From contig JADZEO010000175.1 in NCBI GenBank assembly GCA_020850475.1, positions 1 to 35,169 on the forward strand: a DNA stretch of 35,169 bases, in the 5' to 3' direction. The notes beneath the pieces are model-generated. The model ran no database searches. It had not been told where the DNA came from and saw nothing but the letters and a program-made list of their open reading frames with translations. This stretch comes from Bdellovibrionales bacterium (GTDB lineage Bacteria; Bdellovibrionota; Bdellovibrionia; Bdellovibrionales; UBA1609). Positions 4,428 through 35,153 of the stretch are shown here, one piece after another. A program made the position numbers and the translations under genes. Numbering within the stretch: position 1 is the stretch's first letter; every line of letters begins with the position of its first letter.

Positions 4428-4442
4428 ACAATGCTTGCAGAG

Positions 4443-4877: not shown

Positions 4878-4889
4878 TATAAACCTCCG

Positions 4890-5450: not shown

Positions 5451-5466
5451 TCTCCTCCTTATCGGT

Positions 5467-5507
5467 TAACTTAACACATAGGTTAAGTTATTTCCAGTGT
5501 TAACTGG
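5467..5507 (-). promoter_or_regulatory. Promoter and palindromic operator of the NTase/XRE pair
   Basis: TAACTTAAC (5467-5475) and GTTAAGTTA (5482-5490) are a perfect 9-bp inverted repeat with a 6-bp spacer. On the minus strand a -35-like TTAACA (5498-5503), a 17-bp spacer and a -10-like TATGTG (5475-5480) precede the gene. The palindrome overlies the -10 box and spacer. A second imperfect palindrome, CCAGT/ACTGG (5494-5498/5503-5507), overlies the -35 box. This is the layout of an autorepressed promoter; the -10 match is weak. Confidence 0.6.
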
Positions 5508-5546
5508 TCGGCATCTATAAGTAACTGAAATTACTAAGGAAAAAAC

Positions 5547-7031: not shown

Positions 7032-7849
7032 CAGTGCTGCCCCGGAAAGTAATCTGTCAATTCAACGAAGAACTCAGTCATGGGTTTCACCGTTAGTACT
7101 TGCGCATTTTTATGCGCGACAGTCGCCTCCGACTGAAACTCCTGCATCATGCCCGCCGCGAGCGCGCGCGCGACGAGCGTTCGCATATCTTCCTTGTCCG
7201 TACCTGTATCAACGGTATTCGGATTCGACGAAGCTGACCGAATAGCCGCGCGAGCAAAGAAGCCCTCTTTTTTGACCGCTGCGATTCCAAAAGTGCCATC
7301 AAGACTCATCGCTCGTGCCGAGATCGGTACAGCAAGATCAAGTCTTCGAGGGTGCCGAACAAAGCGAAAGGCGATGTTCACACGTCCTGACGAGAGCTCA
7401 CCCGTGGCTTCGCCAATGAGAGTCCCTCCGACAAATTCTTTTCCGAGCCCGTAGTCGACGACTTGCGCGTGAACAGGTGCATTGGAAAGTGTTTCGAGAA
7501 CATTCATCAGGCGAACTTTCACCAAGGTGCCCGGAGCGCGTTTTGAAAATCCAAAAACACCACGACCGGCCCCACTGCGACCACCGAAGTTGATAATCTG
7601 CGACTGCTTCTCGGGCCGATCACGACCCGCTTCGGCGCGTGGTCGAGTTGGTGGTCGTGACGGTGCAGACAATCCAGCTTCGATAATCTTAAAAATGATA
7701 ATTGCGGAGATCGGGATTAACCCAAAGACCACGAGGTCTTTCGCTAAGAGACTGAGTTGAAATCGAGGTGTCCCGCCTGGGTAATCTTCTTCTAACCAGC
7801 GGGCAAGAAGTCGCTCTTTTTGCCGAGCGAATGAATTCACACTTTTCAT
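7031..7849 (-). CDS. VirB10/TrbI-like T4SS core protein
   Basis: A 272-residue protein. Residues 1-35 are cytoplasmic and basic; one membrane helix lies at about 36-58 (LVVFGLIPISAIIIFKIIEA). A proline/arginine-rich linker (~60-85) follows. From ~103 there is a VirB10-like beta domain: GTLVKVRLMNVLETLSNAPV, then VHAQVV...GGTLIGEATGE and a VNIAFRFVR strand. VirB10 spans from inner to outer membrane and gates the channel in response to ATPase activity. At 272 residues it is short compared with typical VirB10 (~400), mainly in the linker. Its start overlaps the upstream VirB9-like stop (TAATG). Confidence 0.75.
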   Translation of the reverse strand: MKSVNSFARQKERLLARWLEEDYPGGTPRFQLSLLAKDLVVFGLIPISAIIIFKIIEAGLSAPSRPPTRPRAEAGRDRPEKQSQIINFGGRSGAGRGVFGFSKRAPGTLVKVRLMNVLETLSNAPVHAQVVDYGLGKEFVGGTLIGEATGELSSGRVNIAFRFVRHPRRLDLAVPISARAMSLDGTFGIAAVKKEGFFARAAIRSASSNPNTVDTGTDKEDMRTLVARALAAGMMQEFQSEATVAHKNAQVLTVKPMTEFFVELTDYFPGQH

Positions 7850-8529
7850 TAGCGACCCGCCTTTAGATTTGCGAGAAATGGCTTAGTCGAACCTTTCACC
7901 GGAACGACAAGGGATACATCACGCATATCAAGCGGGATGTTGGGCTTGGTAAAAATCAGCCGCGCTTTGATGGTCGAGTCTCGCTGAATCTCGCGCCGCT
8001 CTGACCAAAGTTTGCTCGGACTCACATATCGATCCTTATGCTTAAGTCGAATGCGATCCCAATCTGGCGTAATTTTAGCCGAAGCATCTGCCGAGATTTC
8101 AAAATCGACGGTGAGGAAATCCTTTTTCCTATCGAAAACCGACTTGTGAACCACTGCCTTGCGCCCGTAGACTCTCGCCGCTTGGCGAGTTGCGCTCGTC
8201 GTCGGTTTCGAAGGAATGAGAGAGGTGAACTTCTTAAAGTATGTTGGCTCGTTGTCCTCAGAAGCCGTCAGGATGAAAAGCCGAGCCTCCTTCTTCTTGA
8301 AATACACGAACATATTTGTCGTTGCATAAGGAACGAGCGGCTTGATGACGATAGAACGTTCCAGTTTCTCAACCTGGAAGAGATTCTGATCGCCCAGTAC
8401 GACCTGAGTCGGAGCTTCTTCAAACTCCAGGATCGAACTGAAGCCTTCCTTCAAAAATACCGGAAACGGGGCTGGATTCACATTCATGGCAAACGCCACC
8501 TGCGACAGAAAAAGTGCAATCAAGATCAT
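7849..8529 (-). CDS. VirB9/TraK-like secreted T4SS protein
   Basis: A 226-residue protein with a cleavable signal peptide (MILIALFLSQVAFA). The mature N-terminal half is beta-rich (FPVFLKEGFSSILEFEEAP, then VVLGDQ and IVIKPL), resembling the VirB9/TrbG/TraK N-domain that lies in the periplasm. The C-terminal half is basic with beta strands. ATG 8529 is chosen over an upstream start at 8613 because AAGGAG sits five bases before it and because a signal peptide begins there. It lies directly before the VirB10-like gene, as VirB9 usually does. Family identity is by pattern and position. Confidence 0.6.
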   Translation of the reverse strand: MILIALFLSQVAFAMNVNPAPFPVFLKEGFSSILEFEEAPTQVVLGDQNLFQVEKLERSIVIKPLVPYATTNMFVYFKKKEARLFILTASEDNEPTYFKKFTSLIPSKPTTSATRQAARVYGRKAVVHKSVFDRKKDFLTVDFEISADASAKITPDWDRIRLKHKDRYVSPSKLWSERREIQRDSTIKARLIFTKPNIPLDMRDVSLVVPVKGSTKPFLANLKAGR

Positions 8530-8530
8530 G

Positions 8531-9409
8531 TTAGCTCCTTCCTCTCGAAAAATTTCGAGCGTAATTGACGTATCTTTTTGCTCGCGCTGTGTGAACGGCC
8601 GCCGACATTGCAAGCGTCTTCGGATTCGACATCGCCACAGTCTTCAACACGCCTTTGCGTAACGTATCGCCGACGCTCAAGTTAACGCCGTCAGCAAGCT
8701 GCGAGACGATGAAGGGTGAAAACATCAGCGCCACTGCAATGATGAGGTTCAACGTAATGACGGTGATCAAGTTCCCCTCGACTGAGTAGGCCGAAGCAAA
8801 AGGCATCGCCTTCAAAAATGCCGAGAGTACCGACCAGATCACGGGCCAGCAGGCCACTTGAAACATCGACTTGAAAAGTCCTTTCGTGATCCCGCTCGAT
8901 GCTTCAAACAGTGATCCCAAAATCAAGAACGGACCCAGCGCCACGAGCAGAAACCAATAGAAATGCTGAAACGCGAGCAAGAAGAAGCGAGCTACGATCA
9001 GTATAACGAAGCTAATTAAAACGAGCCCACCGACCAACAATTCACTGCCAAGATTGATGAGCCCCTCAAGATCGAAAGAGTAGAGTTCGGCCCGTTTTGA
9101 TGCCGCATCGAGTACGGCATCAATTCCGGTCATGTCGTCGATTGACTTTGCGATCTCGACCCCGAGTGTTTGTGAAAACTCCGCAATCGTCGGAAATGCG
9201 ACGAGTAGGAGAGCGACCAAGAACAGCCGCTTAAGCCGCACGATGACTGCGCCGCTGATTCCAAGGTCTGTCGAATAGCCGACTGCGACCGAGACTAAGA
9301 AGAGCGGCAGAAGCATTTGCCATGAAAGGTGGCTTGTATGCTCATAGATTTGCCGAGCGACGGGAAGTAGCTTTTCGTACTCTTCGATGGCGGGGATCGT
9401 GTATTTCAT
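8531..9409 (-). CDS. VirB6/TrbL-like polytopic membrane protein
   Basis: A 292-residue protein with about six hydrophobic segments, for example near residues 32-50, 60-80, 130-150 (GGLVLISFVILIVARFFLLA), 150-170, 185-205 and 215-240. There is an amphipathic region between the second and third. The C-terminus is basic (HTARAKRYVNYARNFSRGRS). VirB6/TrbL proteins form part of the inner-membrane translocation pore. It overlaps the start of the VirB5-like gene's end by four bases on the upstream side, and its stop is just before the VirB9-like start. Confidence 0.7.
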   Translation of the reverse strand: MKYTIPAIEEYEKLLPVARQIYEHTSHLSWQMLLPLFLVSVAVGYSTDLGISGAVIVRLKRLFLVALLLVAFPTIAEFSQTLGVEIAKSIDDMTGIDAVLDAASKRAELYSFDLEGLINLGSELLVGGLVLISFVILIVARFFLLAFQHFYWFLLVALGPFLILGSLFEASSGITKGLFKSMFQVACWPVIWSVLSAFLKAMPFASAYSVEGNLITVITLNLIIAVALMFSPFIVSQLADGVNLSVGDTLRKGVLKTVAMSNPKTLAMSAAVHTARAKRYVNYARNFSRGRS

Positions 9410-10083
9410 CGCGTAGATCCTGACTTCAATACGATTCGTGAAAACGTGGAGTCGCCGCCCTGACTCAAGTTGCTCGAAAATGCCTTCATAGAACTGCCAC
9501 GAAGGGTGACTGCGCGAGTCTCCTTTTCGTTACCGTCTGCCAGCATTTGAGCGAGAAGCGCAATGACGTGGCTTTGCATCGTGAGTGACTGAGATTCAAG
9601 AGAGATGAGACTTCCTACTCCCGAAGCTGTGAGTTTCTGCGCGACGCCAGGGGAGGCATCAGCACCTCTGCGCTCGAGTTCTTTGCCAGACTCGAAGCTA
9701 GACTTTGATTCAGGTGCTATGCGAGCCGCGAGATTCATCGCCTTTGCGATTTCATCCTCAATCGTGTCGTACTTCTCTGAACGGTATTCCTTGGGCATAG
9801 CGTGATAGATGATTCGCAGACGGTTCACAGCCTCACGGGGGTCTTTCCATTTCTCCCACTGTGACGGCTGAACGGCGTCTGAGATTGTGCGAATGCGATT
9901 GATGCGGTCTTTGATTCCGGCCAGTTCGTCATTCATGTGCTGAGACTGTTTCTCTAGCTCCATCATTGTGTGGAGCGTGTTGAAGACGATCTCGGCGAGG
10001 AGTGGCAGATCGGCACCCCAAAGATCGGCCTTGGCCTGATATGGCAGAAATAGAAATGCAGATGCCAGAACTAGCTTCTTCAA
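9406..10083 (-). CDS. VirB5/TrbJ-like periplasmic T4SS protein
   Basis: A 225-residue protein with a signal peptide (MKKLVLASAFLFLPYQAKA). The mature part is helical: a long helix at ~28-75 (LAEIVFNTLHTMMELEKQSQ, then MNDELAGIKDRI) and another in the C-terminal half (ISLESQSLTMQSHVIALLAQ). That architecture fits the VirB5/TrbJ family, minor pilus or periplasmic assembly proteins. It lies between the VirB4-like and VirB6-like genes and overlaps both by about four bases. Confidence 0.6.
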   Translation of the reverse strand: MKKLVLASAFLFLPYQAKADLWGADLPLLAEIVFNTLHTMMELEKQSQHMNDELAGIKDRINRIRTISDAVQPSQWEKWKDPREAVNRLRIIYHAMPKEYRSEKYDTIEDEIAKAMNLAARIAPESKSSFESGKELERRGADASPGVAQKLTASGVGSLISLESQSLTMQSHVIALLAQMLADGNEKETRAVTLRGSSMKAFSSNLSQGGDSTFSRIVLKSGSTR

Positions 10084-12143
10084 TTCAAATCCTTTCGTGT
10101 TGATACATTTTCGGTATTTGCGAGCTGATAGAACTCAGGTGTCGGGTAGAGCCTGAACACCTGACTCATGGTCGGACTAAGCGCAAAAAATTCCGAGTAG
10201 ACCGGCTTCTTTGATGTGACAGACAGTGCGCGGGAAATGTCTGTGTTTGGAAGATCGAAGGTCTCTTTTAAAAACTCCGCCGCCGCACCGTTTTGCAGAA
10301 ATATCTTCGTGAAGCTGTTGGTGAAGATCATCTTCGCGAATGCTTCGTCGCCATAGTCCGCCAGGTTCTGCGTGATTGAGACAATTCCTGCGCGATATTT
10401 ACGAAGAGTCCGGTACATCTCCTCTAAGAACGACTTGCTCTGAGCGAAAAAGCGCCAGACCTCATCGAAAACGATCAAAGTTCGCGAGTAGGTGCCCTTG
10501 GTGAGATCGTTCCACAGCAGTTCTGACAGCAGAAGGATCGCAGTTCTTTGTAGAACAGGGTCCGAATCGAGTTCTTTGAAGTCGAACGCCGTGATCTGTG
10601 AGGTGATCATGTCCGTCAATTCAGAGCGCGGTTTGATCTTATCGAGGCCCAGGTGCGGCTTTAGCCAATGTGCGATGTCTTGGTAGAACCGCTCATCTTT
10701 CTTGGCCGCGAACTTCGAGATTGCTCCAATGCTGAGTGGCGTGCCTTCGATGCTTTTTAAAAGATCGTCGATTGCGACTTTGTGCGAGTGAGTGATGTGG
10801 CTTCCAGATCCGCAGAGAGTTTCGATCAGGGTTCGAAAGAACCCGCTCCCGTCGACTCCTCTGAGCTGAAGAAAACTCGCCAAAAGAGCACGTGCTTCGT
10901 CTGCGGAAAGGACTTTGCTCTTGCCGCCATTCGCTTCGATGATACGTCGGTACGAGCCTCCGATATCGAAAATGCAAAGCCGTGTCCGGGACTCATCCTT
11001 GAGGGCCGACGACAGAATGGCATTCATCAAAAAACTCTTACCCGAGCCAGAGGCACCGCAGATGAACGAATTGAAATTGAGGTTCTCTTTTGAGAACAAG
11101 TTCAAATGCGAGACCTCTTCGCTTCGAGATCTTAAGGTCAAAGCCGATTCATCATTACTGCGCGAATAGTCGTGAAGGAGCGGGAACACGTGCGCCAGAT
11201 TCTCCGAGAGAATTGGTAGTTTTCGAATGCCGAGAACTTTACCTCCCGGCAGATGGCTAGTAATCACTGGCAATGCGCCAATCCCTTCCGGGTAGAGACC
11301 GGCATTGCCAATACCCGAGACGACGCGCTCGAAATCATTCGCGAGATCAAATGTTTCTTGCGATGAACCCGATATCGAAAGCCCAAGCGACACTTCGAAA
11401 AGCGTCTCTTTGTTGACGAGAATCCGCTCTAATGTTTCTTCCGACGAATGTAGTACCGAGTTTGACTCAATATTCTTTACCTCAAGTGAACTTGTGACCG
11501 AGAGGGCATGGCTGACCCGACGTTTCGTCTCAAGCTGGCGGCGAATCCTCTTTCGATCTGGAATATTGAATCGAAGCGACAGCGTAAACGGACAGGCGCT
11601 CTCGAAGACAGGCTGAAGGCATCCTTGCCATGTCACCTGCGGGAGTTCTGTAAGCGAAAGAACTCGAACGGTTCTTTCGCCTGCACGAATACAGTCTTTC
11701 TCCCAAACCACGTCTGGAAGTGAGTTCGTCAAAAGCTTTGGGCCGAGAATCGTGCTAAGATAAGAGTTCCAAGTGTCTTTCGAAAGCGGCTCGCATCGAA
11801 CTTTAAGTTCGCCCAAAATCGCACCGAGATGCGAATAGCTTTCTACTTTCTTTACTCGCTCAAAAAACAAGATTTTTGTTTTGAAACCGGCGACTTCGTG
11901 TTCGACTCGCATTCTGAATAAAATCGCTTGGCCGTCGAATAGATTCGGAAGTCTAGTGAGAAGCTCAGAGAGCTTTTGAAAAAAGCTAGCGGCATTGGGG
12001 CCGTCGAGTTCTTCTTCAAAAAGTCCGGTTGAAAGTGGTTCGGCCTCGAAGCACTTGTAGATAGAGCCGTCTTCGCCCTCGATAGTCCCGTCATCATGAA
12101 AGCGTGTCTTCAAAATTGTTTTCGTCAGCGAGTACTTTCTCAT
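10080..12143 (-). CDS. VirB4/TraC-type T4SS ATPase
   Basis: A 687-residue ATPase. The N-terminal ~330 residues are the VirB4/TraC docking domain. Walker A (CGASGSGKSF) is at about 361-370, Walker B (IVFDEVWRF) at about 556-564, followed by a LRKYRAGIVSITQNLADY sensor region typical of VirB4. It would energise pilus or channel assembly at the inner membrane. It follows the VirB3-like gene by 11 bp and overlaps the VirB5-like start. No VirB11 partner ATPase is visible in the window, a pattern seen in F-type systems. Confidence 0.92.
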   Translation of the reverse strand: MRKYSLTKTILKTRFHDDGTIEGEDGSIYKCFEAEPLSTGLFEEELDGPNAASFFQKLSELLTRLPNLFDGQAILFRMRVEHEVAGFKTKILFFERVKKVESYSHLGAILGELKVRCEPLSKDTWNSYLSTILGPKLLTNSLPDVVWEKDCIRAGERTVRVLSLTELPQVTWQGCLQPVFESACPFTLSLRFNIPDRKRIRRQLETKRRVSHALSVTSSLEVKNIESNSVLHSSEETLERILVNKETLFEVSLGLSISGSSQETFDLANDFERVVSGIGNAGLYPEGIGALPVITSHLPGGKVLGIRKLPILSENLAHVFPLLHDYSRSNDESALTLRSRSEEVSHLNLFSKENLNFNSFICGASGSGKSFLMNAILSSALKDESRTRLCIFDIGGSYRRIIEANGGKSKVLSADEARALLASFLQLRGVDGSGFFRTLIETLCGSGSHITHSHKVAIDDLLKSIEGTPLSIGAISKFAAKKDERFYQDIAHWLKPHLGLDKIKPRSELTDMITSQITAFDFKELDSDPVLQRTAILLLSELLWNDLTKGTYSRTLIVFDEVWRFFAQSKSFLEEMYRTLRKYRAGIVSITQNLADYGDEAFAKMIFTNSFTKIFLQNGAAAEFLKETFDLPNTDISRALSVTSKKPVYSEFFALSPTMSQVFRLYPTPEFYQLANTENVSTRKDLN

Positions 12144-12154
12144 TCTCTTACGTC

Positions 12155-12439
12155 CTATTCCTTCTTCGATTTGGTTTGGCCCTTATGGCCTAGGTAGAGA
12201 TGTGGCTCGATGAGAAATCGGCCAAGCATCTCAAGGTGTCCGTTCTTTTGCCCATGCGATATGATTCGCAATATCGCGAGCGTTCCTAGGCCGAGCCCCC
12301 AAGAGAGCAGTAGGGGCGCTTGCATGATATTTAAGATCACATTCGATCCAGCGAGCACCGAGAAGGCAGTGACGATGTGACTGACTTCAAAGCCCCAAAG
12401 CTGCGAGCGATTCATGTTGCTCGTTGGACAGTTCTTCAT
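12155..12439 (-). CDS. VirB3/TraL-like membrane protein
   Basis: A 94-residue protein with two hydrophobic segments at about 20-42 and 43-62, and a conserved-looking polar tail (GRFLIEPHLYLG). Size, topology and place directly between the pilin-like gene and VirB4 match VirB3/TrbD/TraL proteins, which link the pilus base to VirB4. Its ATG overlaps the pilin stop by four bases. Confidence 0.65.
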   Translation of the reverse strand: MKNCPTSNMNRSQLWGFEVSHIVTAFSVLAGSNVILNIMQAPLLLSWGLGLGTLAILRIISHGQKNGHLEMLGRFLIEPHLYLGHKGQTKSKKE

Positions 12440-12708
12440 CGAACTGTCCTTTGAATCAGATCAACGATGCTTTGGGCGCCGAAGAGAATCGTCGCGCCTG
12501 TCACGGCATAGACGAGGTGCTGCTTCGCATTTGGGTTGCCCGTGAAAAAGCTGAAGGCCGCAAAGCCAAGCCCCAGGACGGCGAATATAGGCAAAATCGA
12601 TCCGATCAAGACGTTCTTTAGTCCCAAGAGCGATGACTCGACTGAGGCGTGGGCGAACGGTGCAACGAGCAACATAAGTGCGAGGAGTGCGAATTGTTTT
12701 TTACTCAT
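12436..12708 (-). CDS. VirB2/TrbC-like pilin
   Basis: About 90 residues. A signal peptide (MSKKQFALLALMLLVAPFAHA) is followed by a short mature protein with two hydrophobic helices, LIGSILPIFAVLGLGFAAFS and LVYAVTGATILFGAQSIVDL, separated by a polar loop (GNPNAKQ). This is the layout of T4SS major pilins. ATG 12708 is preferred because it overlaps the stop of the preceding small gene as ATGAGTAA and begins a proper signal peptide; an upstream start at 12744 would extend into that gene. Confidence 0.75.
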   Translation of the reverse strand: MSKKQFALLALMLLVAPFAHASVESSLLGLKNVLIGSILPIFAVLGLGFAAFSFFTGNPNAKQHLVYAVTGATILFGAQSIVDLIQRTVR

Positions 12709-12907
12709 TGGTCTTTGCCTCATTGTTTTGAAGTTGGATGACATAACGCTGACCTGGGAACATGTGGAATTCGCAGCTAACTGAGCCGCCTGATTTTGAT
12801 GGCCATGCGCGACCTACTCGGTTCCACGCAGTTTTCTTTTCTGGGATGCCGTTTTGTTTTGTCTCGTACTCTTTAGCTACAAGAATGTCGTAGAATCCGT
12901 TGTTCAT
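12701..12907 (-). CDS. Small conserved-looking protein at the head of the T4SS operon
   Basis: A 68-residue protein starting MNNGFYDILVAKEYETKQ. The ATG at 12907 is supported by AGGAGG four bases before it; an open frame to 12997 has no such signal. It has a beta-rich pattern (DILVAKEY, WNRVGRAWPS, SVSCEFHMFPG, RYVIQLQ) similar to small proteins that accompany conjugation modules and describe a ssDNA-binding-like or DUF736-like domain. I do not recognise it firmly. Eight-base overlap with the pilin gene indicates cotranslation. Confidence 0.6.
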   Translation of the reverse strand: MNNGFYDILVAKEYETKQNGIPEKKTAWNRVGRAWPSKSGGSVSCEFHMFPGQRYVIQLQNNEAKTNE

Positions 12908-13004
12908 AGTTCCTCCTGAGCTGATAGCAGCTCCATTAATTCTGGTTCTTGTTTCAGTGGCAGAATGCCGATGGACCAAAGGTAGAAGTCGTAGCAATCA
13001 AGGT

Positions 13005-13214
13005 TCACGCGCGCAGATCAGCCAACTGATGTGGCTGACCGACGTGGTGGCTCTTGAGCGAATTTTTTAGAAAGTTCGGGAACTCGATTCGTTCCCATTG
13101 GCTTAGCTCTGAATCAAAGTCTGGCGAGTATCCGCACTCCCAGCAGTTTGAATGTGTCGCAAAGTGTTCGAGGGCATAGCCCCCACATCGCATACAAAAA
13201 TCAATCTCGTTCAT
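13005..13214 (-). CDS. Small zinc-ribbon protein
   Basis: A 69-residue protein with two CxxC pairs, CMRCGG near residue 7 and CWECGY near residue 24, spaced as in a zinc ribbon. The rest is acidic and then basic at the C-terminus. Function is unknown; a DNA- or protein-binding adaptor is likely. Its ribosome site (GGGAG on the minus strand, 13222-13226) lies partly inside the base of the hairpin at 13224-13267. Confidence 0.65.
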   Translation of the reverse strand: MNEIDFCMRCGGYALEHFATHSNCWECGYSPDFDSELSQWERIEFPNFLKNSLKSHHVGQPHQLADLRA

Positions 13215-13223
13215 TTATGTACT

Positions 13224-13267
13224 CCCATATTATGAGGGGCGAATCATCTCGCGCCCTCATATATGGG
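13224..13267 (-). promoter_or_regulatory. Long hairpin overlapping the ribosome site of the zinc-ribbon gene
   Basis: CCCATATtATGAGGGgcg on the left pairs with its complement ending ATATGGG at 13267: about 17-18 base pairs with one bulge and a short loop. On the minus strand it lies between the PIN gene stop (13280) and the zinc-ribbon start (13214). No T-run follows, so it is not a classic terminator. Its base includes GGG of the zinc-ribbon Shine-Dalgarno, so it could limit translation of that gene, or attenuate or protect the mRNA. Function is inferred. Confidence 0.55.
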
Positions 13268-13279
13268 AAGTGGGTGACA

Positions 13280-14302
13280 TCACTCGACTACAAGCCCTTT
13301 GAATGAATTGATGTCGGATACTCTATCGAAGTGGGGATCGACGTTTTTCAGGGAGTAGAAGTGTTCGTCGGCAGAAATAAATGAATCTGAATAGGTAATG
13401 TAAACAGCGTGCAGACAATCCGCCCAAAGGCCACGAGATTTTTTCCGCTTTATCTGATGGAGTGCCATGTAGGCCATCGTTAGGATTGGCCCTCTTTGTA
13501 TGGCAATCTCATATTTTTGTAAGAAGTGATGAAGTCGTTCATTTCGATCATTGATGCCTTCCTCTCTCCAGAACTCCGAGATGACATCAGTTTCCATCGA
13601 TAGCTCTCCGCAAAGAATCATCAGCACAAAATAGATCGAAATTCGGTACAAATCCCGATCGTTGTCGTTCAATTGCGGCTGGCTTCGGACGAAGCTGAGG
13701 TTGGCGACCAAGGGATCGATAATGTCCATTAATACGACGCCAAGTAGTTCATCTTTTTGAGCAGGAAACAGTATTGTCCGGCGAAGTGAGTGCCCAAGTT
13801 TTCTCATTAAATTGAGTTTGTGTGCCAGGTCCTTTCTGTCTAATACGAAGGTTTTTCTCTTATCGCCGCAGATGTCCCGCCAGACATCTGCAATTAGTGA
13901 TCTTGAATCAATTTGTCTTCTCGGCTCGACTCTAGGGCATCCTTGCTTCAACCAATCAATTATCAACTCTTCGGGCGCGGCGAAGGGTGGAAACGGAGCG
14001 AAGTGTTGGAGAAATAAGACGAGACTTTCTCGTTTCGTATCGTCTGCAGTAAGCAAAATCTCCCAAAAAACCAATGATGATATTCGATAGTGATTTCCTT
14101 TCTCTGTGACGAATTTAGAAATTGCTTCGGCCTCCTCGAAACTCAAAATCTCGTGCAAATGATTGATGGCTGATGTTTCGAAATATATGTAGGGCTGGCC
14201 GCCACTCCGATGAAACCAGTGCTTGAATTTTCGTATAGTCGATTTTGCCAAATCAGTCGCTTGCTGCCTGATACGATGGAGCATTGTTTGCCATTCTGTC
14301 AT
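13280..14302 (-). CDS. PIN-domain-like protein (putative RNase)
   Basis: About 340 residues. The pattern of a PIN nuclease is visible: YFETSAINHL near the N-terminus (acid E42 in place of the usual D), ISSLVFWEIL with E81, then near the C-terminus LWADCLHAVYITYSDSFISA with D295, followed by SADEHF with D312. The intervening ~200 residues are an insertion larger than in toxin PIN proteins (~130 aa total). ATG 14302 overlaps the upstream sigma-like gene by 50 bp; TTG at 14323 is an alternative. It may cleave structured RNA. Its partner or antitoxin is not obvious; the upstream sigma-like gene is the only coupled gene. Confidence 0.6.
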   Translation of the reverse strand: MTEWQTMLHRIRQQATDLAKSTIRKFKHWFHRSGGQPYIYFETSAINHLHEILSFEEAEAISKFVTEKGNHYRISSLVFWEILLTADDTKRESLVLFLQHFAPFPPFAAPEELIIDWLKQGCPRVEPRRQIDSRSLIADVWRDICGDKRKTFVLDRKDLAHKLNLMRKLGHSLRRTILFPAQKDELLGVVLMDIIDPLVANLSFVRSQPQLNDNDRDLYRISIYFVLMILCGELSMETDVISEFWREEGINDRNERLHHFLQKYEIAIQRGPILTMAYMALHQIKRKKSRGLWADCLHAVYITYSDSFISADEHFYSLKNVDPHFDRVSDINSFKGLVVE

Positions 14303-14882
14303 CTTTCGATTGTGCCATCGCAATTAGAGACTTCGCAGTCCAGGGACTCTTGGTCGAGTTTGAGCGGGTCGCAGCGAGCAGAGCGCGCTCTATCTTCTGA
14401 AGTGCCCGCTTCTTCGTAACCTTGATCGAGGATCGACTTAAGTTGAGTCGTCGTGCCAGTGTCCGTTCACTTGTGTCTTGCCAGAAGATAGCTTCGACGA
14501 TTTGCGATTGACGTGTTGTTAGCGAGGCCAATGCAAATCCCAAAGACTTCGAGCTGCTGCAATCGCCAGAATTTAGTAGATTCAAATATGGCTCATTTAG
14601 ATCGGCCGCAGTTTGATAGTTCATAGCTGAAATCAAAGTTTCCCGCAGGGGAATCTCTATTGATAGGAGGTAATCATCCCAGGTTTTTTGATCCCAAGTC
14701 TTCGACTCTGTTTTTAAGGTCTCATCATCGATTGGGTGGCTATGAATATCGAGCCACGGCTTCTCTGGATGAATGGCGACAGTTTCGGTGATAAGATTCT
14801 TTGCGAGTTGTGAGCCCATGATTGGGACCTCTTTCGGAAGCTGCGCGGTCGGTCCTTGATCCGACATATTTGCCAACTTCAC
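14253..14882 (-). CDS. Sigma-region-4-like HTH regulator
   Basis: A protein of up to 209 residues. Residues ~112-175 match the sigma-70 region 4 / LuxR-like HTH: LTTRQSQIVEAIFWQDTSER, then TLARRLNLSRSSIKVTKKRA. No sigma region 2 is evident; the N-terminal 110 residues are not recognised. It could be a phage/ICE-type activator or a divergent sigma factor. The start is uncertain (GTG 14882 or ATG 14867; neither has a clear ribosome site). It heads the minus-strand block leading into the T4SS genes, which makes it a candidate activator of transfer. This is inferred from position. Confidence 0.65.
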   Translation of the reverse strand: MKLANMSDQGPTAQLPKEVPIMGSQLAKNLITETVAIHPEKPWLDIHSHPIDDETLKTESKTWDQKTWDDYLLSIEIPLRETLISAMNYQTAADLNEPYLNLLNSGDCSSSKSLGFALASLTTRQSQIVEAIFWQDTSERTLARRLNLSRSSIKVTKKRALQKIERALLAATRSNSTKSPWTAKSLIAMAQSKDDRMANNAPSYQAASD

Positions 14883-15757: not shown

Positions 15758-16915
15758 ATGGAATTAGAGCGAAACAGGATGGGGTCGAAGGCCCCGACGG
15801 TGAACTCAAAATCTAAAAAAACGGAAGCGACAGTCGCAGGTCCGATTGTCGGATCTCAAAAGTCGGACAAGGCAGCGTCGCCACAAGTCGAAGTGCCAAG
15901 TATTCGCCTGTCGCCAGAACAAATCGAAGAAATCCACGTCGATGAGTATTCGCTGACTTTGTTTTACGCGACTCGCGTCGAACCGCTGACGTTAAATGAT
16001 ATCAAACGCGAATTTGCAGAACCCGAGCCAAAGAAAGCCCAATCAGTAATGGAGCGTTTCATTAAAGTAGGCCTCGTGCATATCACTCCGGATGGCTCGT
16101 ACTATTCAAACTACCCAGAGAACTACATCAATTACTCGCACTACAGATATGACGGCGACCTCGAGGCGCGCAAAGATTCGAAGGTTTTCCAATTGATGAA
16201 AGAGTTCAGCGGAAAATCTGAGTATTGGAAAGACAAAACATATTTTTCGATGGATGCGTTCTATTCGAAAGAACAAAGCGACGAGCTTCTCGAGATGTTC
16301 AAGGCCATCAAGCTGAAAGCGAAAGAGTTCGCCAATGAAAACGCCAAGAAAAAAACTATTCGTGGCCTTCGGTTCCGCAGAATGAAGTTCTTCGACATGA
16401 CCTTCGCTTTCATATTCGCGATGCTAATGACGCTTGGAATGTCAACAAAGTCATTCGCTGGCGGCAACGATCCGGTCATCAATATGTACCGAGCGAATCC
16501 TGTCGCAGCTTTCAACTTCTTGAACGTGGCTCGATATGCTGGCGGTGGAAATGATCCAACGGCAATTCGGTTTGGCGGCACGGTTCCTGATTTGTATTAC
16601 GCCGCATTGGCCGAGCCGCCAAAGGCCCCAGGTTCTGACGGCGGTGGTGGGCACGATCCAAATGGAAGCAGGGGGCCGGTTGTCGGTGGTGGCGGTCATG
16701 ATCCAGCAAATCCGCCAAGCATGGGAAGTCCTTCTTGTTACTTCGAATACGAAGGGCAAATGATTGCGATCATGTCGAAACGCAGTTGCCGATTGAAAGT
16801 ATTTATCGACTTCATGAACGAATGCGGTGATAGCGATCAACCTGCTTGTGTTGAGGCCGAGAGGCAGACTGAGTTGTTGATTCATCGACTTGAACTTGAA
16901 AGTCGAACGAAGTGA
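15758..16915 (+). CDS. DUF4423/TIGR02147-like domain with membrane anchor and GGxDP repeats
   Basis: A 385-residue protein. Residues ~50-205 resemble the C-terminal part of TIGR02147/DUF4423 regulators: RLSPEQIEEIHVDEYSLTLF, a PKKAQSVMERFIKVGLVHIT wing, then an FSMDAFYSKEQSDELLEMFK helix. Residues ~211-234 are a signal-peptide-like hydrophobic segment ending SFA. After it come GGNDP (~235), GGGNDP (~262), GGGGHDP (~295) and GGGGHDP (~310), then a cysteine-containing domain (four Cys). So the N-terminus is probably cytoplasmic and the C-terminus exported, as in anti-sigma or regulated-proteolysis sensors. ATG 15758 follows GGGGG. The gene overlaps the MFS start by four bases. Confidence 0.6.
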   Translation: MELERNRMGSKAPTVNSKSKKTEATVAGPIVGSQKSDKAASPQVEVPSIRLSPEQIEEIHVDEYSLTLFYATRVEPLTLNDIKREFAEPEPKKAQSVMERFIKVGLVHITPDGSYYSNYPENYINYSHYRYDGDLEARKDSKVFQLMKEFSGKSEYWKDKTYFSMDAFYSKEQSDELLEMFKAIKLKAKEFANENAKKKTIRGLRFRRMKFFDMTFAFIFAMLMTLGMSTKSFAGGNDPVINMYRANPVAAFNFLNVARYAGGGNDPTAIRFGGTVPDLYYAALAEPPKAPGSDGGGGHDPNGSRGPVVGGGGHDPANPPSMGSPSCYFEYEGQMIAIMSKRSCRLKVFIDFMNECGDSDQPACVEAERQTELLIHRLELESRTK

Positions 16916-21400: not shown

Positions 21401-21748
21401 GCTGAAAAAGCGATTGAAAAAGCCCAAGGCTTGCTTGAGAAGCGAGCGGTTGCCGAAGCTGATCAGATGAAGAAAATCATCGAGAATCAAATCAAGTCGG
21501 TCTCTAAATTCCAAGGAGGTTTGGAGAAGAAGGATCAGGCTCAGGCGCTTTTACCTGGCTTTGAGGAAATCGTCGAAAAAGCAGAGCGAGAGCAGTTCGA
21601 AGCCAATCGAAAATACTGGGTGAAGCGCCTAGAGGATCTTGCTCGTGAACTCGAGCAGGAACCACAAAAAGTGAAGCAGTCCTATCAAATTAAGGCATCG
21701 CGATTTGAGCCGGTTGGCATTGTCTACCTTTGGCCGGAGTCAAACTGA
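18497..21748 (+). CDS. drmD: DISARM class 1 DrmD, SNF2-type helicase
   Basis: A 1083-residue SNF2-like DExH helicase. The Walker A loop DDVGLGKTIEAGL begins at residue 134; DEAHH at 244-248; SATPHNG at about 281; the motif V/VI region (TDAAREGLNLQKYC, then RMEQRNGRIDR) near 595-627. The C-terminal ~430 residues are helical and charged. DrmD with DrmMI defines class 1 DISARM, an anti-phage system that methylates host DNA and blocks incoming phage DNA. Its TGA overlaps the drmMI ATG (TGATG). Confidence 0.93.
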   Translation: MENLIPQVGSLVEVRQRRYLVESVRTSEKSKLTTLSLACIDDDDQGRKLEVYGEKERDGKILEADNWQKIVEKGFDPPEKFAAYLNTIRWNCVTATDPKLFQAPFRAGIKIEAYQLEPLRRALQMPRVNLFIADDVGLGKTIEAGLIVRELLLRRKANYVVVAAPPSMIPQWKSELDNRFGLSFQIIDREFISELRKERGYAINPWSTNTRFLISQKLLIDENYIAGLRDFLSQNRMGSLLILDEAHHAAPSTGSKYAVDSQLTASVRELAWLFEHRLFLSATPHNGHSNSFSALLEVLDPQRFMRGIPVDPKLRKEIMIRRLKEDLRSLVGGLPEREVVQVDIDCDEPTEIPEIKLFELLSGYIELREQRLSKASKGSQRASKLVLSNLQQRLLSSVEAFYRTLRVHKKSVEKLLEAKTDEVDVKPQIKFDLLEGSIGADDDRASLDPEVNEQEVEAQMRKATEASAGPLEGMQAELKLLNEMEALAGKSKTQPDQKIQKLVDWISKNQCAAIGDSKVKDKKWTEKRVIIFTEWEDSKRYVRDQLLSLIEGTDQWEKRIEVYHGSTSVEKREEIKKRFNTDPAVEPLRILICTDAAREGLNLQKYCFNLFHYDVPWNPSRMEQRNGRIDRKLQESEIVYCHYFFYRQRPEDRILKVLIDKTNTIRKQLGSVAQVVEEKLAEDLKGSVLKRSTLDDLRQRYEALQVEEAKSKAFKAEFLDDDERREELIKSISTLRAQLQESSGWIGFSKEQFKQAIEVGLGVIGAPGLEPKTLKESEAFAINTNEDSLTKKTSWLDAIDQLRTPMTNERSVSEWRRSSPIRPIVFEDVGAMDDSVVHLHLEHKLAQRLLGRLLTQGFAYDDLSRSCFASSDGNVPKVILLGRVALYGDRAMRLHEEIVGVSAEWLEPEIRKGKKLKPEPEADYDRSREALFKAISRKKHSVQKNIQAKLHSSIIQDIDDLKATLLKRAEKAIEKAQGLLEKRAVAEADQMKKIIENQIKSVSKFQGGLEKKDQAQALLPGFEEIVEKAEREQFEANRKYWVKRLEDLARELEQEPQKVKQSYQIKASRFEPVGIVYLWPESN

Positions 21749-24700
21749 TGAGTGAAGCGTACCTTCTCAATGAGCATCGAGAGTGGATTGGGCTATTGCA
21801 GCCAGTCGGACTTGTTGTTTCGCCAACTGCGCTTGCGCGCGCACAATTGCGATTGCAAAGGGACGTCTTTGAACTTCAGAACGAGTTGATGTCGATAACG
21901 GATGACGCAGGCTTATTGCCCATGCATCTGTTAAATCTCTTCATCCGCGTGCTTGGGTGGCGAAAGGATGATCTGTTCGCTGGCGATTCTATCAATGATC
22001 TCCATGTATATCTTCCTGAGCGAGAAACTCTTCTTAAGGCTGACTTTGCCGTAAAGAACGTCGATACGCAGAGTTTTGAAATTCTCATTAAAGATATTGG
22101 TCATAAAGCTTTCGATGAGGATGAGGTACCCGAAGGTCGCGGCTGGCAAGCGACTCCACACGCCAAGTTTGAGAGACATCTCAGAGAGAAGAATATCTCT
22201 ATCGGGATTCTCGTCAGCCAAGCAGGGCTTCGGCTCTTGTATGCGCCAAAAGGCGAAACATCAGGCTATCTGACCTTCCCTTTTGCATACATGCGAGAGA
22301 CTCAGGGGCGGCCGGTTCTTTCGGCGATGCATCTATTACTGTGCGAGGACCGACTATTCAAAGGTGATACATCACAGCGATTGCCAGCACTTTTAATAGA
22401 GAGCCGAAAATTTCAAAACGATGTCTCGACTCAGCTTTCAGAGCAAGTGCTTGCTGCACTTTACGAATTGTTGAGAGGCCTTCAAGAGGCAGATGAGTTT
22501 TCGAAGGGCCGGCTGCTTGAGGATGTCTTAGCTCGAGATAAGAATGAGGTCTATCACGGGCTACTCACAGTACTGCTGCGAGTCGTCTTTCTTCTTTATG
22601 CGGAAGATCGTGATCTATTATCGAACGATGCAGTTTTTTTAAACAACTATTCTGTTAACGGTTTGTTTGCACGCCTTCGCGAGGACTTCAGTAAGCATCA
22701 TGATAGCATGAACTTCCGTTTTGGAGCGTGGGCGCATCTGCTTTCACTTTTTAGACTGATCTACGAAGGCGCTGAATTGGAGTTCGACAACATTCCGGGT
22801 CGAAAGGGTCATTTGTTTGACCCGGAAAGGTTCCCGTTCTTAGAAGGGCGAGAATCTAAATTAGAATTCCGTCCGCCTAACATTTCCGACGGCGTAATTT
22901 GGCGCGTGCTCTCGAATCTGATGACCTTGGATGGGGACCGAATCTCCTATAGGGCGTTGGATGTGGAGCAAATTGGTTCAGTCTATGAAGCGGTGATGGG
23001 ATTCGAATTGATAATAGCTGACGGGCCTAGTGTCGCTGTCAGGTCTTCAAAGCCGCATGGCGCGCCAGTGTTGATCAACCTTCAAGAAGTCCTTGATAGT
23101 ACCGACAGGGATAAGTTGATCTCTGAACTTGCTGATTTGAAAATCGATAAGAAAACTTCGGAGTTGGTAAAGAAAGCTACTTCTGTCGATGAGCTTGCAC
23201 GTGCGATAAGTAAGTATGTTGCAGATTGGGCGACACCTTCTATCTTGGATCCCGGTTCGATTATGCTCCAGCCTGGCGATGAAAGGCGAAGGTCTGGATC
23301 GCACTATACACCAAGGTCACTAACTGCTCCGACTGTATCGAAAGCTCTGGAGCCGATCATATCGAGTTTTGGTCCCAGCCCTACGCCGGAGCAAATTTTA
23401 GGTCTGCGAATCTGCGATCCTGCGATGGGATCCGGTGCGTTTCTTGTTGAAGCTTGCCGACAGCTAAGTGAGTTATTAGTTATTTCTTGGGCGTTCCATC
23501 AGGTTGATGTTCACAGCGAATTGCCGCCAGATGAGGATGAACTTCTCTATGCTAGGCGCTTGATTGCTCGTCGATGCATATATGGTGTCGACAAGAATCC
23601 TATGGCCGTCAACTTGGCTAAACTTTCTTTGTGGTTGGTTACCTTTGCGAGAGATCATGATTTTACGTTTTTAGATCATGCGTTGAAGGTAGGCGATTCG
23701 TTGGTCAGCCTAAGCCTTGCGCAGATTCGTGGAGCTTCCTGGAGTGATGAGCAAACACTGCCGCTTCAGATCCAATCGGTTGTTGAGCGGGTTAGCAAGG
23801 TCATGGAAGTTCGCCGCTCAATTAGCAATGCGGATGATACTGCTAGTACCGTAGTTTTGGAAGCTCTGAAGGCAGAAGAGGACGAGCTTTTAAACGATTT
23901 GAGGTCAATCCAGTCAGTTGTACTTTACTCCTATTTCTTCCAATCAACCGACAAACTGCGGAAACAAGAGCTGGGCCGAATCTCACTTTTACTAGAACAG
24001 TTCTACGCAAGTGGACTGGCATTCAAGGATTTTAGGGGCCTTGATAGAGAGCTGCATTTGTCCAATTCAAGCATTCGTTCCTTTTCCTGGGAAATTGAGT
24101 TTCCTGAAATCTTTGGTCGACAAGACTCAGGATTCGATTGCTTTGTGGGAAACCCACCTTTCCTGGGTGGGCGTAGAATATCTTATCGTCTTTCCGACAG
24201 CTACTTGGAGTTTCTGAAGAGAACACTTGATGGCTCAGCTGGGACGACCGACCTATGCGTTTATTTTATGCGTAGGTTGTGGGCGCTCCTTAAGCATCGC
24301 GGAACGTTTGGCCTTATTTTGAGTGATATCGTTTCTCAGGGGGAGTCGCGAATAAACGGGCTCGAGTTTCTTATCAGTCAAGGCGCCACAATTTATTCTT
24401 GTGTTCCGTCAATGCCCTGGCCGGGGACTGCGGGCGTCAGGGTAGCTCAAGTTCATGCCACAAAGGGTGACTACCAGAAAGAGAAATACATAGACGGCGT
24501 AGTGGCGCAACAAGGGATTGACTCTTTTCTTCAGGATTCCACTGGCGCGCGTACACCGCATCAGCTGTTGGAGAACGATGGAATATGCTATTCGGGCCAT
24601 TATCTGATGGGCCAGGGTTTCGTAGTTTCTGTCGAAACGGCTAGCGAACTGAAAAGCGCGCGCGAATGCAATCGAGAGGTCATCTTTGAATATATTCGGG

Positions 24701-25509
24701 GAGACGATATTAACAATGAGCCTACTCAGCGATCTGGACAGTTCGCGATCAACTTTGGAATGCGCGAATTGTCTGAATGTGAAGAGAGATATCCAGAATG
24801 CATTGAGCTTGTCAGGAGTTTAGTCAAGCCTGAGCGCGATCAGGTAAAACGCAAAGCAAACCGTGAGAGATGGTGGCGCTATGCTGAAGCCCGCCCAGGA
24901 CTTGAAGCTGCAATTTCTGAACTTCAAAGAGTAATAGTTCAGCCATTTACCGCAAAGTATCTATTTCCTACGTTTGTTCCGGCCAGGTCGGTTTTTGCAC
25001 ATCCCATGGTTGTAGTCCCAGATCAGAGATTCGGTGTTTACGCGATTTTGCAGTCAAGGATCCACGAGCTCTGGGTTTGGCAACACTGCTCAACTTCTCT
25101 CGAGCTGCTTAGATACACAGCGAGCAGTGTTCTAAATACGTTTCCGTTTCCAAGAAGCATCGTCTCCTTAGATGGAATTGGCGAAACCTATTATGGGGCT
25201 CGTCAATCACTTCTAGCGAGTCATCGAGGTGGACTAACGGAGATATACAATAGATTCCATGACCCATCTGTGACTGACGCTGGCATTGTTGAGCTTAGGT
25301 CACTTCATTTGCAGCTAGATCAATCTGTTGTGGCTGCTTATGGTTGGCATGATCTTCAGCTAAGCCATGAATTCACGACGAGGTTGGGCACAAACGGTAC
25401 ACGGCTAGAGATTCTGGAACATCAACAAAAATCGATACTCGAACGATTGCTCCAGCTCAATTTGACGATGCCTTCGGTGACAGGTGATCCGAACAGTGAG
25501 GAAATCTGA
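21748..25509 (+). CDS. drmMI: DISARM class 1 DrmMI, adenine-specific DNA methyltransferase
   Basis: A 1253-residue protein. The N6-adenine methyltransferase motifs are DPAMGSGAF (AdoMet-binding motif I) from residue 557 and NPPF (catalytic motif IV) from 802. HYTPRSLTAPTV, the family-typical segment before motif I, is also present. The ~520-residue N-terminal part and the C-terminal target-recognition region resemble Type IIG-like methylases. In DISARM it marks host DNA as self. The ATG at 21748 overlapping the drmD stop is preferred over the TTG at 21730. Its stop overlaps the drmA start. Confidence 0.93.
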   Translation: MSEAYLLNEHREWIGLLQPVGLVVSPTALARAQLRLQRDVFELQNELMSITDDAGLLPMHLLNLFIRVLGWRKDDLFAGDSINDLHVYLPERETLLKADFAVKNVDTQSFEILIKDIGHKAFDEDEVPEGRGWQATPHAKFERHLREKNISIGILVSQAGLRLLYAPKGETSGYLTFPFAYMRETQGRPVLSAMHLLLCEDRLFKGDTSQRLPALLIESRKFQNDVSTQLSEQVLAALYELLRGLQEADEFSKGRLLEDVLARDKNEVYHGLLTVLLRVVFLLYAEDRDLLSNDAVFLNNYSVNGLFARLREDFSKHHDSMNFRFGAWAHLLSLFRLIYEGAELEFDNIPGRKGHLFDPERFPFLEGRESKLEFRPPNISDGVIWRVLSNLMTLDGDRISYRALDVEQIGSVYEAVMGFELIIADGPSVAVRSSKPHGAPVLINLQEVLDSTDRDKLISELADLKIDKKTSELVKKATSVDELARAISKYVADWATPSILDPGSIMLQPGDERRRSGSHYTPRSLTAPTVSKALEPIISSFGPSPTPEQILGLRICDPAMGSGAFLVEACRQLSELLVISWAFHQVDVHSELPPDEDELLYARRLIARRCIYGVDKNPMAVNLAKLSLWLVTFARDHDFTFLDHALKVGDSLVSLSLAQIRGASWSDEQTLPLQIQSVVERVSKVMEVRRSISNADDTASTVVLEALKAEEDELLNDLRSIQSVVLYSYFFQSTDKLRKQELGRISLLLEQFYASGLAFKDFRGLDRELHLSNSSIRSFSWEIEFPEIFGRQDSGFDCFVGNPPFLGGRRISYRLSDSYLEFLKRTLDGSAGTTDLCVYFMRRLWALLKHRGTFGLILSDIVSQGESRINGLEFLISQGATIYSCVPSMPWPGTAGVRVAQVHATKGDYQKEKYIDGVVAQQGIDSFLQDSTGARTPHQLLENDGICYSGHYLMGQGFVVSVETASELKSARECNREVIFEYIRGDDINNEPTQRSGQFAINFGMRELSECEERYPECIELVRSLVKPERDQVKRKANRERWWRYAEARPGLEAAISELQRVIVQPFTAKYLFPTFVPARSVFAHPMVVVPDQRFGVYAILQSRIHELWVWQHCSTSLELLRYTASSVLNTFPFPRSIVSLDGIGETYYGARQSLLASHRGGLTEIYNRFHDPSVTDAGIVELRSLHLQLDQSVVAAYGWHDLQLSHEFTTRLGTNGTRLEILEHQQKSILERLLQLNLTMPSVTGDPNSEEI

Positions 25510-31577: not shown

Positions 31578-32168
31578 GTGAATACAGAAGCCAATCGAAT
31601 TAGAGTTGGGCATGTCTTAGAAGCAGTCGCGGAACAAACCAGAAGCAGGCGAGCAATCGTGCTTACGGAAAGTGATTTGAAGTGCCAAGTATATTCGAAC
31701 CTAATTGCAGTGCCAGAGTTTGGCAGATTTCAAGACACTTTTGATCCCGAAGTGAGCGGCATCTCAGTTCATACAGAAACGAAGTTTTTTGATAGCCGAG
31801 GGCTGCTTCGGCAAGCTCCGGATTTAGTGATAACTAGTCCGTCACGTTTGAGTATAAAGACGCGCATCGATGGCGAAGCATTGCCTTCCAAGGGGTTTCA
31901 TTTTGATGGTTCAGCAATTCTTATTGAGCTCAAGTTTCTCAAAAAAGATGGGCGGCTCGCAGCGACAGATTTGGGGAAGATCGAGCAAGATATTTTAAAG
32001 GGTGAAACCCTGAATCGTCGTGGTGATCTAGATTTTCACCTATTTGTTGCTGTATTTGATCGATTTGTTCACGGACAAGAACCTGTTAACGACTTATTCC
32101 TACACCACAGGAACCAAGAAAATCTGACGTGCAGGTACTTTCCAGGTGGTCCATCGTTTCGCGCCTAA
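31578..32168 (+). CDS. Putative PD-(D/E)XK nuclease appended to DISARM
   Basis: A 196-residue protein. The order E31, P81-D82 (APDLVI), E117-x-K119 (ILIELKF) fits the PD-(D/E)XK nuclease core, with an acidic helix residue, the PD strand and the ExK strand. K134 in DLGKIEQDIL could complete the active site. It begins at GTG 31578, 36 bp after drmC, with GGGCGAG upstream, and is probably in the DISARM transcript. No standard DISARM component matches it. It could be an extra effector, or the remnant of a separate restriction gene. Confidence 0.5.
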   Translation: MNTEANRIRVGHVLEAVAEQTRSRRAIVLTESDLKCQVYSNLIAVPEFGRFQDTFDPEVSGISVHTETKFFDSRGLLRQAPDLVITSPSRLSIKTRIDGEALPSKGFHFDGSAILIELKFLKKDGRLAATDLGKIEQDILKGETLNRRGDLDFHLFVAVFDRFVHGQEPVNDLFLHHRNQENLTCRYFPGGPSFRA

Positions 32169-32294: not shown

Positions 32295-33386
32295 GTGTTT
32301 GTGGCGAATCAATTGAAAGATAAGCAGCTTAAGTTCTTATTTAGATCATACACGCCGCAGGTTAGGGCGGGATCTAGGTCAAATAACAGGTTTTCATTTC
32401 AAGAAGCTTGGAGTTTAGATCGCCTGCTTGATCAACACGGCAGTATGCAAGATTACCTGGCTGTCTTTGATTTTCATGAGGACTTCGTAATTTTTGAAGA
32501 TACGGTTGCCTTCAAGGCAGCTAGTTTCTTTCAGATCAAGACGAAAGATTCAGGTCAGTGGAGAATTTCAGATCTGACAAATAAGGGAAGGTCAAAGAAG
32601 TGCTTTCTCGACAAGTTGGCAGAGACCCGACACGCATTTCGTAAAATGCAGATGAGACTTTTTCTTGTTATAAATGGAACTGCTGAAATTGCTGTCAAGC
32701 CCGGTGCAAATTCATTTGAGTTTGGACTCCATCAGATAGAGTCCGCTGACCAAAAGAAAATAAGAGCTAAGATCGCAATCGGTAAAACGCCCGATAAGTG
32801 TTCTAAATTCTTTCAACAGACCTCGATTGTCTTGTCGACCCTTCCTCTTGATGAAAGCCAGCGTGAGACACAGCTAAAGGGTAAGTTAACAAATCTCATC
32901 ACAAAGCTGTTCCCCCAGCGGCCGTATCAAATTATTCCCATTTATGAATGCCTAAAGGTCGAAATTTCAAGGCGAAGTAAGTTCGAACTTGAGGTTAAAG
33001 ACATTGCGGCCTTAAGGGACAAGAAGGGAATATCAAAAGACCAATTCGCTCAATTCCTTTCTGTTGGTGTTGAGCGAACCGAGCAGTCTGACTGGGTAAA
33101 TATTCAGCAAAGACTTACGGCTGAGGGCGTTTCGTTGAAAACGGTTAAAGAATTGAGAGATGGATACAATGAGCTTCTAGTATTACGGACTAGCGGAAGT
33201 CCTGCACTTGAGAAAATTGCTTGCGATATCAACGAGCAAATTGCAATCGAGGAAGTGCGTCAAAGCAAACTGATAGACTTAATCGAGACCGTTCACAATA
33301 ATATTAAATCGAACGATTTTTTAGATGGTTACAAAGAAACTGTAATCAGGGCTTTGGTGGCACATGAATATCAGAAAAAAGGGTAA
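32295..33386 (+). CDS. DUF4297/Cap4-type nuclease, LmuA-like
   Basis: A 363-residue protein. The N-terminal ~200 residues match the DUF4297 dsDNA endonuclease of Cap4/LmuA: FSFQEAW (35-41), the catalytic aspartate D63 in HEDFVIFED, then Q80-x-K82 in FFQIKTK. The C-terminal ~160 residues are helical and could hold the partner-binding domain. Start is GTG 32295 or GTG 32301. The preceding 126-bp gap contains two GTCCTAG copies (32205 and 32263) and no clear promoter. It is followed after 38 bp by a Rad50-like ATPase. In Lamassu and other ABC-three-component systems such a nuclease is held inactive by the ATPase until phage DNA is sensed. Confidence 0.7.
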   Translation: MFVANQLKDKQLKFLFRSYTPQVRAGSRSNNRFSFQEAWSLDRLLDQHGSMQDYLAVFDFHEDFVIFEDTVAFKAASFFQIKTKDSGQWRISDLTNKGRSKKCFLDKLAETRHAFRKMQMRLFLVINGTAEIAVKPGANSFEFGLHQIESADQKKIRAKIAIGKTPDKCSKFFQQTSIVLSTLPLDESQRETQLKGKLTNLITKLFPQRPYQIIPIYECLKVEISRRSKFELEVKDIAALRDKKGISKDQFAQFLSVGVERTEQSDWVNIQQRLTAEGVSLKTVKELRDGYNELLVLRTSGSPALEKIACDINEQIAIEEVRQSKLIDLIETVHNNIKSNDFLDGYKETVIRALVAHEYQKKG

Positions 33387-33424
33387 CTATAAATTTCTGG
33401 TTAGGAACCTGAGAGAGAATCGGC

Positions 33425-35080
33425 ATGAAGAAGCTCATAATAAAAGAATTGCAACTTTGTTCTCTGAAGGAGAAGAAGGCAAAGTGTCTCCCTCTAGATC
33501 CAAAAAAAAATCTGATAATCGGAGGAAATGATACGGGCAAATCTTGCCTGATGAAGAGCATCTATCATGCATTTGGAGCTGATGTTAAATTCGAACCAGC
33601 ATGGGAATCCGCAGATGTTAAATCACTCGTGACGTTCACGGTTGATAATGGACAAACCTACTCGATTCTTAGAGACCAACGAACATTCAGCGTCTTCGAT
33701 TCTAATATGAACCACCTGAAGACGTTTACGTCCGTGACCAAGGGTCTCGGCCCATACCTAGCGGACATGTTCGATTTCAAATTGCGATTACCAACTAAAG
33801 GTAACTCTCAAGATGCTATGCCGACCCCTGCATTCATGTTTCTGCCGTTCTATATAGATCAAGATAAAGGTTGGAACCGAAGTTTTGATTCCTTCGAAAG
33901 GCTCCAGCAGTTCAGCGATTGGCGTACTCCTACAATTGAGTTTCACACAGGCATTAGGCCAAACGAGTATTACGCTACCAAGATTGAGATTAAAAGCAAG
34001 ATCATCAAAAGAGATGAGATACAGAGCGAGGTGAATGCAACGGATGCGATACTATTTAAGCATAGGGAGCGCTACAAAGATCTTCCGTTTGACATTGATT
34101 TTGATGCATTTAGAAAGGAAGTCGACGAGCTTCTCGTTCGAGCTGAGATTGTTAAGTCAGAAGAGGAGAAGTTTAGGTCAGATTTGCGCGAGCTTTATGA
34201 TGAGAAACATGTTGTTAGCCATCAGTTAAGTTCCGTATCAAAAGCTCTTCAGGTGGCCGAGAAAGATTTTAAGTTTACGGTCGAAAATCCTGACGAAGAA
34301 ATTGAATGCCCAATCTGTCATACGACGTTTGATAACCGTTTTGCCGATAGGATCGAAATTGCAAAAGACGTGAACGAATTTGATCAGCTATTGAATGAAC
34401 TTCAGCAAAGAGCTCTTCAAATTGAAGCGTCGATAAAAGATCTAAAAATCAAGACAGAGCCTTTGAAAAGTGAGTTGTTCCGCATAAACGCGATTCTCTC
34501 GGAGAAGAGAAAGACCATTGAGCTGCGCGATTTGATCAAAGCCGAGGGCCGACGAGAATTGATTGATGATCTAAAGGGCCAACGTGATCTGCTGCTTGGG
34601 AAGCTGAGAGATCTGCAGGCTGAAATAGATGCTTTGAGCGAGAAGCTTAAGTCGTATGAGAATAAGGATCAGAGGAATAGAGTTGTAAGCAGTTACTTTC
34701 TTGCGACTAAGAGATATTTAAACGACCTGGATGTTCATAATATTGCCGAAGAAAAGTTCAAAAAGGTCTCGAGCGTAATCGAGAAATCCGGGAGCGACAA
34801 GCCGAGGGCACTGCTTGCGTATTTCTTCGGAATTCTTGAGGCAATTAAGCAGCACTCCACGTTCATGCTTTGCCCGATAGTTGTTGATTCCCCTAACCAG
34901 CAGGCTCAAGACAAAACAAATATCAAAAACATCCTCGAAGTTATTCGAGATAAAGCCCCATCTGACTGTCAGGTAATTTTAGCTGTCGAGGGCTTGCACG
35001 GTGTAAAATTCAATTGGAATACGATTGAGCTAAAGACTAAATTGTACTTAGGCAGTAATTCTCGTACACGCGGGGCGTAA
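33425..35080 (+). CDS. Rad50/SMC-like ABC ATPase, LmuB-like
   Basis: A 551-residue ATPase. Walker A GGNDTGKS is at 33-40; a long coiled coil runs over ~185-290 and ~315-425; C295-P-I-C298 (CPICH) at its tip is a zinc-hook signature; Walker B is IVVDSPNQQ with D488 near the C-terminus. This head-coil-hook-coil-head plan fits SMC/Rad50 relatives such as LmuB and other ABC-three-component ATPases. At 551 residues it is shorter than a typical Rad50. ATG 33425 is preceded by GAGAGAATCGGC, a weak ribosome site. It likely senses DNA ends and releases the upstream nuclease. Confidence 0.75.
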   Translation: MKKLIIKELQLCSLKEKKAKCLPLDPKKNLIIGGNDTGKSCLMKSIYHAFGADVKFEPAWESADVKSLVTFTVDNGQTYSILRDQRTFSVFDSNMNHLKTFTSVTKGLGPYLADMFDFKLRLPTKGNSQDAMPTPAFMFLPFYIDQDKGWNRSFDSFERLQQFSDWRTPTIEFHTGIRPNEYYATKIEIKSKIIKRDEIQSEVNATDAILFKHRERYKDLPFDIDFDAFRKEVDELLVRAEIVKSEEEKFRSDLRELYDEKHVVSHQLSSVSKALQVAEKDFKFTVENPDEEIECPICHTTFDNRFADRIEIAKDVNEFDQLLNELQQRALQIEASIKDLKIKTEPLKSELFRINAILSEKRKTIELRDLIKAEGRRELIDDLKGQRDLLLGKLRDLQAEIDALSEKLKSYENKDQRNRVVSSYFLATKRYLNDLDVHNIAEEKFKKVSSVIEKSGSDKPRALLAYFFGILEAIKQHSTFMLCPIVVDSPNQQAQDKTNIKNILEVIRDKAPSDCQVILAVEGLHGVKFNWNTIELKTKLYLGSNSRTRGA

Positions 35081-35153
35081 AAGTGCACTTGCGCCCTCCT
35101 CGATGGAGCTGGAGAATTTCCAGCAGCATTAACCCAAAGGGGAGGGAACACAA

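Follow-up and report, generated by a model that had tools for sequence, protein, structure and literature searches.

Introduction

A gene pair at the end of a Bdellovibrionales contig, encoding a DUF4297 nuclease and a Rad50-like ATPase beside a DISARM operon, raises the question of where the third component of a Lamassu-like system, LmuC, might be: missing, fused to one of the two proteins, or encoded downstream. LmuC is the middle component, and some Lamassu systems do without it (PMC10586767); about 10.2% of the Lamassu systems in a PADLOC survey contained it, and its presence defines type II (PMC8565338). The original prediction, made from the letters of the DNA, had noted the likeness to Lamassu (LmuA/LmuB), and had proposed that a compact LmuB and a two-gene or fused architecture might set this locus apart.

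Here we characterize the pair within positions 1 to 35,169 of contig JADZEO010000175.1 (assembly GCA_020850475.1, Bdellovibrionales bacterium), the whole stretch analysed and hereafter called the window. We conclude that it is almost certainly a type I (two-gene, LmuAB) Lamassu anti-phage or anti-plasmid system that shares a defence cluster with DISARM, apparently within an integrated conjugative element. The analyses described below directly show the genes present, the families to which they belong, the fold of their products and the residues conserved.

Results

Gene content of the window

The pair comprises two consecutive plus-strand ORFs at 32295-35080, preceded by the other features considered here:

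1234-14882, minus strand: integrase and conjugation genes
15758-16915: 385-aa ORF beside an MFS transporter gene
21730-25509: Eco57I/MmeI-type N6 methylase (Pfam)
31578-32168: 196-aa ORF between drmC and lmuA
32295-33386, plus strand: lmuA, 363 aa, GTG start
33387-33424: lmuA-lmuB spacer, 38 bp from the ORF coordinates
33425-35080, plus strand: lmuB, 551 aa, ATG start

A short way upstream of the pair, DrmD, DrmA, DrmB and DrmC were identified by PADLOC and NCBIfam, and together with the adenine methylase they make up the gene set that characterizes class 1; the operon is thus class-1-like DISARM, in agreement with the DISARM neighbour named in the original prediction. Farther left, the minus strand encodes a phage-type integrase, a VirB4/TraG-like ATPase, a CagX-like protein (a weak match) and a coupling protein. 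This combination suggests that the region is probably part of an integrated conjugative element with defence genes as cargo. Two ORFs, of 196 and 385 residues, matched nothing in Pfam, PADLOC, NCBIfam or PHROGs, and the former had no plasmid relative either; by eye, its segment PDLVI...AILIELK looks like a PD-(D/E)XK nuclease motif.

LmuA is of ordinary form throughout its length

The product of the first ORF matched the PADLOC LmuA profile PDLC00238 (2.4e-63) nearly end to end, residues 16-361 aligning with profile positions 9-363 of 365. Its N-terminal part is a Cap4/DUF4297 nuclease (Pfam PF14130, 3.1e-25), with a PD-(D/E)XK-type domain spanning approximately residues 24-228. The signature D63, Q80 and K82 that had been read from the sequence lies in this domain, and in an alignment of 17 sequences all three residues are invariant, as are G26, Q36 and K244. 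The remainder (residues 229-363) forms a helical C-terminal domain typical of LmuA. Scanned alone, it aligned with the corresponding end of LmuA profiles (1.1e-14); no other profile, LmuC profiles among them, was matched.

A predicted model of LmuA (pLDDT 79) retrieved 9ux7, entitled "CryoEM Structure of LmuAB-DNA complex", as its top Foldseek match; the structure predictions used no plasmid-record rows as input. Residues 33-363 superimposed on 9ux7_C with Z 16.9 over 287 aligned residues and an rmsd of 8.8, a high value that in the model probably reflects a differing angle between the two domains. By itself, the nuclease domain also matched those of Cap4, Hachiman and Avs3 in structure comparison.

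LmuB is a near-normal Rad50-like ATPase with a short C-terminus

Matches of the second product to SMC/AAA families in Pfam were only weak, whereas those to LmuB profiles were very strong (PDLC00249, 2.5e-176, residues 1-542 on profile positions 1-541 of 565). The SMC-like heads and CPIC hook originally perceived were borne out: the Walker A residues N35, G38, K39 and S40 (region 35-40) and the Walker B D488 are invariant among 17 aligned sequences, the zinc hook C295-P-I-C298 is conserved, a GSDKPRA signature region begins at residue 456, and the predicted model (pLDDT 86) places head elements at both ends with long helices between them. The best solved relative by sequence was the 562-aa LmuB of 9ux7 (1.3e-18), and 9ux7_A was the top Foldseek match of the model (1.8e-20). 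Active ABC ATPases carry a glutamate directly after the Walker B aspartate. At this position the window LmuB has a serine (D488-S489), and its relatives mostly S, A or T, a substitution that fits the remark in a review that LmuB may be slow at ATP hydrolysis (PMC10586767).

The supposed compactness of LmuB largely dissolved on comparison, since 551 residues are near normal beside full-length relatives of 561-582 aa, a PADLOC profile of 565 positions and the solved protein of 562 aa. What sets it apart is its end: LmuB stops soon after the last predicted strand, about 10-31 aa short of full-length relatives, which continue for about 10-30 residues more. The sole oddity of the gene pair is this short C-terminus, encoded near the end of the contig; it leaves the assignment to Lamassu unchanged.

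Relatives, gene order and the contig end

Relative loci were drawn from genomes and plasmids, taking the first possible start codon of each gene. Identity to these relatives was low in both LmuA and LmuB alignments (17-36%), and searches of 141 and 144 genomes from the order and class of the host yielded no LmuB relative, a result consistent with horizontal gain. The comparison of gene order proposed with the original prediction gave a consistent picture: of the 23 relative loci that include sequence upstream of lmuB, 22 carry an LmuA-family ORF immediately 5' of this gene, with spacings from overlap to 87 bp, and no other protein family was present in the neighbourhood of more than two loci, so that neither a conserved third gene nor a conserved gene 3' of lmuB emerged.

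Position 35169 is the genuine end of the contig. As had been pointed out, a possible next gene is cut off there: its ATG lies at 35154, preceded by a GGGGAGGG stretch, and 16 bases of the gene are present. For the final 115 bases, the genome contained no other substantial match and the plasmid records searched none at all, so that no continuation beyond this point was found. The interval between lmuB and this start codon (35081-35153) contains GC-rich inverted repeats, maybe marking a transcription end; the folding energy of 35070-35153, a value computed without a shuffle control, was -35 kcal/mol.

A second Lamassu system in the same genome

Searching the genome with LmuA revealed a second DUF4297 gene on another contig (C170), belonging to a three-gene system:

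Positions 1149-4583 within 3000-11886 of contig C170, minus strand: type II Lamassu, with LmuA, LmuC and LmuB in a row

Its products are LmuA of 395 aa, LmuC of 164 aa (2.6e-25) and LmuB of 596 aa (2.8e-124). The best LmuA and LmuB profiles of this pair differ from those of the window pair, which is therefore unlike a type II copy stripped of its middle gene. With its real LmuC, the C170 system provides a useful internal contrast.

Discussion

Three features place the window pair in Lamassu type I: an LmuB matching its family profile over residues 1-542 of 551 and finding 9ux7_A as nearest fold, an adjacent LmuA whose C-terminal domain alone is recognized as LmuA, and no LmuC between the two genes, the 38-bp spacer leaving no room for one. 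The likeness to Lamassu originally drawn was thus confirmed by near full-length profile matches for both proteins. With the type I complex 9ux7 the pair shares a two-protein composition, a Cap4/DUF4297-type effector, an LmuB of about 560 aa with a short coiled coil, and the best Foldseek match for both members; it differs in its low identity (about 14-19%) and slightly shorter LmuB C-terminus. Type II, ABC-3C and DdmABC systems (LmuACB; 9hqx, 9uxh) have the effector nuclease fold and LmuB fold in common with it but are distinguished by the middle gene LmuC, absent at this locus. The Cap4 effectors of CBASS (6vm6, 6wan) share the nuclease fold, but they bear a SAVED domain responsive to cyclic nucleotides and adjoin a cyclase gene; in the window LmuA, Pfam matched the nuclease domain only, the C-terminus is LmuA-type, and the neighbours are DISARM and LmuB.

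The apparent lack of LmuC had drawn attention to this locus, and indeed none lies between lmuA and lmuB; its absence, however, is the usual state, given the frequency of about 10.2% noted above (PMC8565338). That the LmuA C-terminus stands in for the middle component could be argued from the missing gene and from the lower conservation of the C-terminal half relative to the nuclease half. We reject this proposal, to which we give next to no probability: residues 229-363 match LmuA and not LmuC profiles, so that no fused middle-component domain resides there. The C-terminal portion of the nuclease can be aligned throughout with ordinary LmuA, an outcome that the original prediction had itself named as refuting its suggestion. 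Moreover, the LmuA proteins of relatives are equally long (361-390 versus 363 aa), and LmuAB with two proteins is a solved complex. That the pair belongs to a type II system of three genes, with LmuC past the contig end, is likewise extremely improbable. The cut-off ATG at 35154 would allow it; LmuC, however, is the middle gene, as in the C170 system, and occurs in only about 10% of systems, and is thus not expected 3' of lmuB, where relatives have no conserved gene. None of the neighbouring ORFs scanned matched a PADLOC LmuC profile, and the best-scoring LmuA and LmuB profiles are not those of the C170 pair.

Lacking the final stretch of its relatives, this copy of LmuB might be weakened, and the pair could be a relic whose lmuB end was lost by rearrangement, leaving a non-functional system. 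In addition to the shortfall itself, the tail motif of relatives (LL....Y plus a helix) is absent from all three forward frames as far as the contig end, and the last eight residues of the model are low in confidence. The same scan of forward frames led us to reject a frameshift at the lmuB end. We consider a relic unlikely, since the catalytic, hook and Walker residues of both genes are intact, neither internal stop nor frameshift is seen in them, and among relatives the tail is constant in neither length nor sequence; the short C-terminus may be length variation of no consequence, or may stem from a local rearrangement. A type I system in which a tail-less LmuB acts as a compact sensor, or shares control with the adjacent DISARM operon, appears very unlikely.

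For the type I system favoured here, a mode of action can be proposed by analogy with studied homologues. LmuB would act as sensor in the form of a Rad50-like dimer that binds ATP, is joined at its zinc hook and may clamp foreign DNA or DNA ends; it would probably sense ends or hairpins, in line with the sensing and nuclease output summarized for Lamassu (PMC12904381). LmuA, the presumptive effector, would be a double-strand DNA nuclease of the Cap4 type, which LmuB would keep bound until target DNA is recognized; once freed or activated, the nuclease would cut DNA, and the infected cell would be killed or arrested (PMC10586767). Sequestered and nuclease-tetramer states are named in PDB entries for type II structures (9hqu, 9hr5), and we infer that similar states may apply to type I.

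The two-gene form was initially put forward as a novelty; since type I is already classified and its structure solved, the finding is an ordinary one and raises no new question. The pair extends Lamassu type I by one divergent member, and its genome is an example of one that holds both type I and type II Lamassu.
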